A stretch of 64,000 nucleotides of DNA from Herminiimonas arsenicoxydans (lineage in GTDB: Bacteria; Pseudomonadota; Gammaproteobacteria; Burkholderiales; Burkholderiaceae_D), in NCBI GenBank assembly GCA_000026125.1, contig CU207211.1:744001-808000 (forward strand), in the 5' to 3' direction. The stretch's first letter is position 1; each line of letters begins with the position of its first letter. The position numbers and the translations under genes were made by a program. This document shows positions 17,109 to 18,527 of this stretch, piece after piece. Below the pieces are notes generated by a model. The model was given only the letters and a program-made list of their open reading frames with translations. It was not told the origin of the DNA and made no database searches.

Positions 17109-18311
17109 TCATTTCTTTAACTGCGCCAGCACATCGGACAGCATCGCGATCATTTGATCGATCTCTTCTATCGTCACATTCAATGCCGGCATAAAGCGCA
17201 GCAGGTCAGGGCGTGGCGAGTTCAGCAGCAAACCGACCGGGCCCATGTCGCGTGCCTTTTCCACGATCTGCGGGCCGATATCGGAGCCGAGTTTCAACGC
17301 GCGCAGCAAACCGTCGCCGCGTTCGCCTGCGAGTCCGTGTTGTGCTGTCAGTTTCAACAAGGCTTTGCTCAGATACTCGCCTTTGTCCTTGACCGATTGC
17401 ATGAATCCCGGCGCCAGCAATGCCTGGGCCACAGCGAGTCCGACGGCGGCCATCAAGGGATTGCCGTTGTAGGTGCCGCCCTGATCGCCTGGTTCAAAGC
17501 AGGCAATTTCTTCGCGACACAGCATCGCAGCCAGCGGCACGCCGCCGCCTATGCCTTTGCCCAGCGTCATGATGTCCGGCTCGATGCCGGACAGCTGATA
17601 GGCAAACAACTCGCCGCAGCGGCCCATGCCGGTTTGTACTTCATCGGTGATCAGCAGGATGTTGTGTTTTTTCGTCAGCGCGCGCAGTGCCTGCATGAAT
17701 GCACGCGTGGCCGGCAGCACGCCGGCTTCGCCTTGAACCGGCTCCAGCATCACGGCGACGGTTTTGCCGGTGATCAGTTTTTCCACGCTGGCGATATCGT
17801 TTAGTGTCGCCTTGAAGAAGCCCGGCACTTGCGGTGCATAGATCGTGTCCCAGCCGGCCTTGCCGCTGGCCGACATGGTAGCCAGCGTGCGACCGTGGAA
17901 GCTGTGATCGAAGGTAATGATTTCGTAGCGATTTTCGCCGGCGGCACTCTGGTTGAGCTTGCCCCATTTGCGCGCCAGCTTGATGGCGCTTTCATTGGCT
18001 TCCGCGCCGCTGTTGGCGAAGAAGACGCGATCGAAGCAGGAGTTCTCGGTCAACAAGGCAGCCAGTGCGATCGACGGTTCGTTGTAAAACGCCGGCGATG
18101 GATTGATCAGTTTTTTCGACTGTGCTGCCAGCGCATCCTGTATGCATTTCGGCGAATGGCCGAGACAGTTGACAGCCCAGCCTTGCAGGTAATCGAGATA
18201 GCGTTTGCCATTATGGTCGGTCAGCCACATGCCGTCGCCTTCGGTAAAAACCAGCTCCGGACGGTTGGTGATATAGAGCAGGGCATTGACTGGGTATTGG
18301 CTGAATTCCAT
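17109..18311 (-). CDS. argD: Acetylornithine/succinyl-diaminopimelate type aminotransferase
   Basis: 400-aa class III PLP aminotransferase making N-acetylornithine in arginine synthesis. Features: [58 protein letters not shown] and the PLP lysine in [16 protein letters not shown]. The start at 18311 follows CAGGAG. Class III members overlap in specificity (ornithine, GABA), so the assay is not settled by sequence. Its upstream region (18364-18527) holds a promoter, a 22-codon ORF with three Arg codons and a terminator, which supports an arginine-related role. Confidence 0.88.
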
Positions 18312-18363: not shown

Positions 18364-18394
18364 AAAAAAAAAGCCACAGGATTTGCCTGTGGCT
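18364..18394 (-). terminator. Intrinsic terminator between leader ORF and argD (candidate attenuator)
   Basis: Perfect 9-bp stem AGCCACAGG / CCTGTGGCT with a 5-nt loop, followed on the minus strand by nine U. It is 28 nt past the leader stop codon and 52 nt before the argD start, so any argD transcript from the upstream promoter must read through it. It could also simply end the ascD transcript. Confidence 0.85.
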
Positions 18395-18422
18395 AGGTGA
18401 GCGTGAATTTAAAACTACACGC

Positions 18423-18491
18423 TTACACGCACGGCATCCCTGCTTGGGCAGTGGGGGTACGGCGTCGCAAGAGTGGGGCGGTCATCTTCAT
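18423..18491 (-). CDS. Candidate 22-aa leader peptide of argD with three consecutive Arg codons
   Basis: ATG at 18491 opens a 22-codon frame whose product begins MKMTAPLLRRRTPT and ends PCV, stop at 18423. Codons 9-11 are CGA CGC CGT, all arginine (18459-18467). A strong promoter is placed so that the transcript would begin at or within a base of this ATG, so it would be leaderless. A hairpin (AGCGTG / CACGCT, 18400-18423) begins at the stop codon, then comes the terminator. This fits a ribosome-sensing leader. I did not find a clear alternative antiterminator pairing by eye, so a regulatory small RNA or peptide is also possible. Confidence 0.6.
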   Translation of the reverse strand: MKMTAPLLRRRTPTAQAGMPCV

Positions 18492-18498
18492 GTGAAGA

Positions 18499-18527
18499 AT
18501 ATTAAGTCGTTTTGCGCAGTGCGTCAA
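18499..18527 (-). promoter_or_regulatory. Near-consensus sigma70 promoter of the argD leader
   Basis: On the minus strand TTGACG (18527-18522), a 17-nt spacer and TAATAT (18504-18499). The expected start site is 18491-18492, i.e. the A of the leader ATG or the base before it. Confidence 0.75.

Follow-up and report, generated by a model that had tools for sequence, protein, structure and literature searches.

A putative arginine-codon leader-peptide attenuator with a predicted leaderless start upstream of argD in Herminiimonas arsenicoxydans and related bacteria

The trp, his, leu, thr, ilv and phe leaders of proteobacteria are ribosome-mediated attenuators of amino-acid biosynthesis. The leader upstream of argD that is described here resembles them in having a short ORF with codons for the pathway product, overlapping alternative helices and an intrinsic terminator ahead of a biosynthetic gene. 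Unlike them, it would sense arginine, is predicted to lack a 5' UTR, and has an antiterminator that is not yet secure in the family to which our window (the whole 64,000-nucleotide stretch of DNA that was analysed) belongs. Judging from the accessible parts of the two source papers, the nearest precedents are S. meliloti trpL and the Salmonella speF leader. The S. meliloti attenuator RNA (rnTrpL) begins with the ATG of the leader ORF and is released as an sRNA upon termination, trpL exerts control by attenuation without repression of transcription, and trans roles have been reported for both the RNA and its peptide (accessible sections of PMC7298713). This system shares with the argD leader the leaderless ATG start and attenuation as the means of control (both predicted for argD), and differs in that it responds to Trp instead of Arg and precedes another gene. 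In the speF leader, two consecutive Arg codons of orf34 sense arginine via ribosome pausing and alternative folds (accessible sections of PMC6386406). Consecutive Arg codons in a leader ORF are thus common to both, but according to the same sections speF orf34 serves polyamine synthesis, depends on Rho-dependent termination and RNase G with no intrinsic terminator, has a Shine-Dalgarno sequence and does not stand before an arginine-biosynthesis gene. Within open full texts, a body that most subscription papers lie outside, we found no description of a leader-peptide attenuator for arginine ahead of argD.

From the sequence of the window, all elements of the leader were found to lie on the minus strand upstream of argD, between this gene and a flavin reductase gene that is its upstream neighbour on the same strand. 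In the direction of transcription, the features are:

18522..18527, minus strand: -35 element TTGACG, from a promoter consensus scan
18499..18504, minus strand: -10 element TAATAT, from the same kind of scan, 7 nt before the ATG
18423..18491, minus strand: leader ORF MKMTAPLLRRRTPTAQAGMPCV followed by its stop codon, 22 codons, predicted to be leaderless; from ORF reading and comparison, with the start taken from the promoter spacing
18459..18467, minus strand: Arg codons CGA CGC CGT (codons 9-11), the proposed arginine sensor, from conservation
18462..18471, minus strand: region 1, CTTGCGACGC, 5' arm of the protector helix with two Arg codons inside, from covariation
18427..18436, minus strand: 5' part of region 2, TGCCGTGCGT, the proposed antiterminator strand, from cross-lineage pairing and the switch model
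18422..18430, minus strand: 3' part of region 2, GCGTGTAAG, 3' arm of the protector helix, overlapping the stop codon, from covariation
18384..18393, minus strand: region 3, GCCACAGGCA, 5' arm of the terminator with the beginning of its loop, to which region 2 would pair, from pairing comparison
18364..18394, minus strand: intrinsic terminator, a 9-bp stem and U run, from folding, scan and alignment
17109..18311, minus strand: argD, acetylornithine transaminase, the regulated gene in the model, from NF002985 at 743 bits

The two promoter elements are separated by a spacer of 17 and match 9 of 12 consensus positions. The decisive evidence for the leader is its conservation, while the promoter match alone is within chance (one site in two registers against 1.3 expected in the consensus scan). 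The ATG of the leader ORF occupies 18491-18489, and the terminator stem-loop AGCCACAGGCAAATCCTGTGGCT spans 18394-18372, with the U run extending down to 18364 and a further 52 nt leading to the argD ATG at 18311. The layout given in the first-pass annotation (a promoter, an ATG, a 22-codon ORF, CGA CGC CGT and a 9-bp U-tailed terminator, with argD 52 nt on) was found as it had been stated. The leader of the window folded with a z of -3.1, and none of 200 shuffles was as low. A known riboswitch or T-box was dismissed, since no Rfam model matched in the window at its gathering score. The product of argD was assigned through the NCBIfam equivalog NF002985, whose cut-off is 568 bits, and the broader TIGR00707 (argD) scored 389.5, just short of its cut-off of 410.

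Taken together, comparison of these sequences leads us to consider it highly probable that the argD leader is a ribosome-mediated transcription attenuator, tuned to the supply of charged arginyl-tRNA and carried on a leaderless transcript. In this model, transcription would start at or beside the leader ATG and a ribosome would load onto the 5' end without a Shine-Dalgarno sequence. When arginine is plentiful, the ribosome would pass CGA CGC CGT, reach the stop codon and cover region 2, so that terminator formation leads to the release of a short RNA. When arginine is scarce, it would stall on the Arg codons and cover region 1, by which region 2 would be freed from the protector helix and could pair with the 5' arm of the terminator, and RNA polymerase would continue into argD. 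Without translation, the protector helix would keep region 2 occupied and termination would win. Of these steps, we infer where transcription starts, that the ribosome stalls, that the antiterminator forms in vivo and that argD responds to arginine.

To detect the reading frame without presupposing it, a frame-blind search was used that asked only for the promoter, an ATG 4-9 nt past the -10 box and CGACG downstream. This yielded 97 distinct cases from 168 upstream regions (142 distinct). Measured from the ATG, the first CGACG lay a multiple of three away in 97 of 97 cases, a count that is not one of independent events because the sequences are kin; the distance was 24 nt in 80 cases, while eight other lengths, from 18 to 72, accounted for the rest. 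The last CGACG was in frame with the ATG in 96 of the 97. The frame kept in all 97 argues for a short translated leader ORF of the kind an attenuator needs. Alignment A1 pointed the same way: in 31 of 32 rows, the length from the ATG to region 2 deviated from the commonest one by whole triplets. The row that did not conform is L048, where 5 nt are lost after the Arg codons and the stop comes early. A1 retained 32 of 37 rows (L023, L024, L043, L044 and L049 were dropped) and a second alignment, A2, retained 30 of 34 (without L077, L085, L086 and L092), the dropped rows being hard to align or near-duplicates.

The gap between the -10 box and the ATG was 6 or 7 nt in 96 of the 97 frame-blind cases, and the -35 element read TTGACG in 55 and TTTACA in 30 of them. 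From this spacing, the transcript is expected to start at or beside the A of the ATG, which agrees with the start at or next to the ATG that had been predicted on first reading. Comparison supports the frame of the ORF, its Arg codons, the spacing between promoter and ATG, the terminator and the protector helix.

Conservation was assessed on the regions upstream of ArgD at 104 loci, comprising 80 named loci and 24 of the 30 fetched from relatives, with some genomes represented twice; the six remaining fetched loci were left out as a distant paralogue. At 84 of the 104 loci (71 distinct), an ATG opened a short ORF that had Arg codons side by side, and a U-tailed hairpin came after it; detection required adjacent Arg codons and such a hairpin, and the codon rule admitted CGA or CGT as the first Arg codon. 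The start codons of L024, L043, L044, L045, L049 and L078 were assigned by hand. A second, partly overlapping set, in which the first Arg codon had to be CGA, gave a leader in 50 of 64 upstream regions. Among the named loci, the leader was carried by Herminiimonas, Collimonas, Undibacterium, Noviherbaspirillum, Paucimonas, Glaciimonas and Herbaspirillum, and further carriers were Caballeronia, Paraburkholderia, Trinickia and Pandoraea. Leaders with quite different peptides and terminators were found in further families (for example L174, L176, L182-L184 and L187-L189). In carriers, what appears to be an intrinsic terminator stands between the leader ORF and the gene, as in other attenuators, although the U-tailed hairpin was itself required for detection. 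No leader was found at 20 of the 104 ArgD loci, those of Azonexus, Azoarcus and Dechloromonas among them.

Several of the deviating loci are informative individually. At L019, L054, L056, L106 and L108, no leader was found and argD starts shortly after the upstream frame ends; control of argD has therefore probably changed there. L084 (Candidatus Burkholderia pumila) is a natural loss of the attenuator, with the leader missing and a promoter of the same type directly before the ribosome-binding site of argD. L161 (genome G073) has the usual promoter, ORF end and terminator and a single Arg codon (MNIQTKFNRGSTSLVQSGKPCA), its sensor being decayed or retuned. At L022, no leader lies upstream of argD and the gap is filled by repeats of the type GCCTCCGTGCCTGCG in both orientations.

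With E 0.001 as the limit, a covariance model had matches in 140 of the 294 family genomes, covering 26 of 40 genera, where the 140 includes some weak matches and weak ones can be mere terminators. Twenty regions with matches were fetched; six were argD leaders (L156-L161), all of them real leaders before argD, and the other 14 were judged to be ordinary gene-end terminators with similar stems. Such weak matches are therefore no evidence of further leaders, and a regulon drawn from the secondary matches was dismissed. The terminator-only matches include the best match of G075 (E 5e-8) and L142, which lies 1.5 kb beyond the window and is one of three matches in the host genome, where the main one is the argD leader. 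At the level of the order, 33 of the 250 genomes searched had an ArgD of this type (E 1e-140 or better).

Among 95 distinct leader ORFs, Arg occupied slots 1 and 2 in all (adjacent Arg codons having been required for detection) and slot 3 in 86. In combination with the same arrangement at 84 of 104 loci, this answers the check for conserved Arg codons and terminator in relatives that the first-pass annotation had proposed. Its attenuation reading is likewise supported by the comparison; two findings that would speak against it, Arg codons not conserved among relatives and a start predicted elsewhere, were looked for and neither was seen. With argD confirmed, the Arg codons would form the run of codons for the pathway end product that is typical of attenuators. 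The first Arg codon was CGA at 83 of 84 loci and in 70 of 71 distinct leaders, a count that draws on a detection round in which no codon rule was set. In seven genes of the window, CGA makes up just 4 of 123 Arg codons. CGA, CGC and CGU are decoded by one inosine tRNA, CGA slowly. A first codon that is nearly always CGA, rare in genes of the window and slowly read, points to selection for a stall-prone sensor codon.

Pairing between the Arg codons and the end of the ORF was studied in 32 aligned Oxalobacteraceae leaders. The Arg-codon region CTTGCGACGC pairs with the ORF end GCGYGTAAG, with 93.4% of cells paired, and the covariation of this protector helix was 0.285, as compared to 0.022-0.109 for slid partners. 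Three of five measures were reached by none of 500 column shuffles; for the remaining two, pairs changed on both sides (of which there were 3) and pair types, 147 and 70 of the 500 shuffles were as high, respectively. In 30 Burkholderiaceae leaders, RNAalifold drew an equivalent helix between the Arg codons and downstream sequence unprompted. A protector helix that includes the control codons, as attenuators have, is hence well supported by comparison. In L010, the stop codon comes six codons early and GCCGTGCG is retained downstream of it, which argues for a role of GCCGTGCG as RNA.

A hairpin at the stop codon had also been pointed out on first reading. This AGCGTG...CACGCT hairpin is present in the window, where it overlaps the leader stop codon, but AGCG...CGCT pairing at the stop was seen in just 5 of the 32 aligned Oxalobacteraceae leaders, so that it is probably not the working part.

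No convincing antiterminator had been recognized by eye. One is now proposed, in which region 2 at the ORF end pairs with the 5' arm and loop of the terminator; it gains support across lineages and none within Oxalobacteraceae, the family of the window, alone. In the latter family, the pairing energy was no stronger than that of shuffles (mean z -0.16 over 35 leaders; -9.9 versus -10.4 kcal/mol for the window). Region 2 of other lineages even paired better, on average, with Oxalobacteraceae terminators than their own did (-13.4 versus -11.2 kcal/mol), and for the terminator of the window a swapped region 2 was as good or better in 32 of 35 cases. The antiterminator columns in this family are almost invariant and therefore cannot covary. 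For Burkholderiaceae, the pairing had a moderate advantage over shuffles (mean z -1.33 over 32) and was stronger with own than with swapped partners (-14.0 versus -10.7 kcal/mol), and in L024 and L074 it was strongly better than both shuffles and swaps. When seven lineage groups (34 leaders) were compared, with row and column means removed and with groups and representatives picked by hand, own pairing beat swapped pairing by a mean of 2.1 kcal/mol, and 27 of 5040 permutations were as good. This signal came mostly from groups B2 (L074, L080), E (L023, L182-L184) and F (L024, L187-L189), with little from A and B and none from C and D. The candidate antiterminator is thus plausible from cross-lineage comparison, and weaker than the protector helix.

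The consequences of ribosome position were modelled by folding 103 distinct leaders with a ribosome footprint. The terminator arm was sequestered with a mean probability of 0.75 when the ribosome was stalled, 0.26 when it was at the stop codon and 0.31 without a ribosome; the corresponding values for the window were 0.77, 0.05 and 0.29. Sequestration in the stalled state exceeded that at the stop by more than 0.1 in 94 of the 103 leaders and not in the other 9, with L168 showing the reverse. Part of this contrast is geometry, because a ribosome at the stop hides more RNA. A shuffled middle still sequestered the arm at 0.57 in the stalled state, and when set against shuffles only 28 of 103 leaders reached p 0.1 or less. 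Counted from the first Arg codon in the window, the antiterminator strand begins 31 nt on and the stop codon 42 nt on. Given the size of the ribosome footprint, this spacing means that a stalled ribosome would leave the antiterminator strand free while a ribosome at the stop would cover it.

The genomic setting is one in which the usual regulator of arginine synthesis did not pass the Pfam cut-offs. For ArgR, PF01316 gave one match in the host genome, which was below the cut-off, and PF02863 gave none over the cut-off in 116 family genomes and one below it; as a control, 8 of 14 genomes, E. coli and B. subtilis included, were over the PF02863 cut-off. Control of argD by ArgR was dismissed on these grounds. 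The accessible part of a comparative study describes ArgR as kept in gammaproteobacteria and missing from other classes (PMC5343134). No leader with Arg codons and a terminator was found in the 480 nt upstream of each of argF, argC and argJ of the host, and within the four genes examined (argD, argF, argC and argJ) the device is therefore specific to argD. In the host genome, argG is the same-strand gene after argF, and the two matches are 138 nt apart.

In part of the relatives, the leader coincides with a catalogued RNA. Rfam family RF02884 (Burkholderia sRNA 7, BcKCsr7) matched the argD leader in L169 with 92.6 bits (one of eight loci given) and in L059, L062, L066, L074, L079 and L088 (six of 12 loci given). 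The leader of the window aligned over the full length of this model with 19.1 bits (E 0.073), below the cut-off of 59. B. cenocepacia RIT34, also named nc5U30 and Bc_KC_sr7, is listed as an expressed RNA of 147 nt in the accessible part of a 2024 review (PMC10987360, Table 2), which credits the name Bc_KC_sr7 to Ghosh et al. 2017; from the Rfam match, we infer that it lies upstream of argD (BCAL2701) in that species. The nc5U names appear to denote short 5'UTR transcripts from Sass et al. 2017, whose accessible text ascribes this class to processing or attenuation (PMC5688073). RF02884 is catalogued as an sRNA, and neither an ORF nor Arg codons nor attenuation is mentioned for it in the accessible sources.

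The small-RNA alternative raised in the first-pass annotation therefore stands to the extent that the Burkholderia version is a catalogued sRNA, and this fits the terminated product of the same attenuator. The stronger form, in which the short transcript is mainly a trans-acting small RNA like RF02884 and both the ORF and the place before argD are incidental, could draw on that Rfam entry and on the expression of the homologue, which goes down in C. elegans infection and up under organic peroxide according to the accessible part of PMC10987360 (Table 2). We regard this as very unlikely, since the Arg codons are in frame in 97 of 97 cases while other residues of the peptide vary, and since the terminator arm and region 2 differ together between lineages, which a seed for a distant target would not predict. 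The loci were fetched via ArgD, so elements elsewhere would have been missed, yet the six real leaders among the 20 covariance-model regions were all before argD.

Somewhat better prospects, though still doubtful ones, attach to a reading in which attenuation and a trans function coexist, by analogy with S. meliloti rnTrpL and peTrpL. The RNA released by the attenuator might then have two roles, one in cis at argD and another in trans, as a leaderless mRNA for an arginine-rich peptide and as a small RNA with targets, and RF02884 and the Oxalobacteraceae homologues might belong to a single family of dual-function signals for arginine starvation in betaproteobacteria that lack ArgR.

Slightly less credible than a mainly trans-acting RNA is an arrest peptide, whose nascent chain would sense arginine or a related metabolite in the ribosome tunnel. 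SpeFL is such a peptide, its nascent chain sensing ornithine. The leaders do have a short conserved L-R-R-R core, and Leu precedes the first Arg in 74 of 95 distinct ORFs. In arrest peptides, it is the chain ahead of the stall that is conserved, whereas the residues ahead of this core vary widely between lineages; if high arginine caused the arrest, argD would be raised just when the cell has no need of it. We give the least credence of all to a terminator that merely insulates argD from read-through of the flavin reductase gene, with argD expressed from an unseen promoter between terminator and ATG: the leader does sit between two same-strand genes, and the consensus scan that saw no second promoter there is of a weak kind, but the dedicated promoter, kept frame, conserved Arg codons and covarying helix would be needless for insulation, and L084, lacking the leader, has the same promoter type directly before argD.

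If the argD leader is a ribosome-mediated attenuator, it offers a candidate explanation of the way in which betaproteobacteria that lack ArgR could adjust their arginine synthesis, and the leader may stand in for ArgR. Arginine would join the amino acids that are made under leader-peptide attenuation, and the model supplies a testable mechanism for a catalogued small RNA, which the leader may explain. With a near-invariant CGA and a predicted leaderless start across distant lineages, it could be a good system for studying the coupling of ribosome and RNA polymerase on leaderless mRNA.

Three further observations were made at the margins of this analysis. Upstream of argC of the host, at a distance of 58 nt, is an 8-codon ORF, MRRHRLLK (L194), which contains three Arg codons and has no terminator behind it. 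The leaders of Caballeronia, Paraburkholderia and Trinickia (for example L059-L065 and L079) mostly have GTTTACA at the -35 position, which contains the methylation motif GTWWAC. Finally, a manganese riboswitch (RF00080, 106 bits) is located close downstream of argD at L186:2795-2971.
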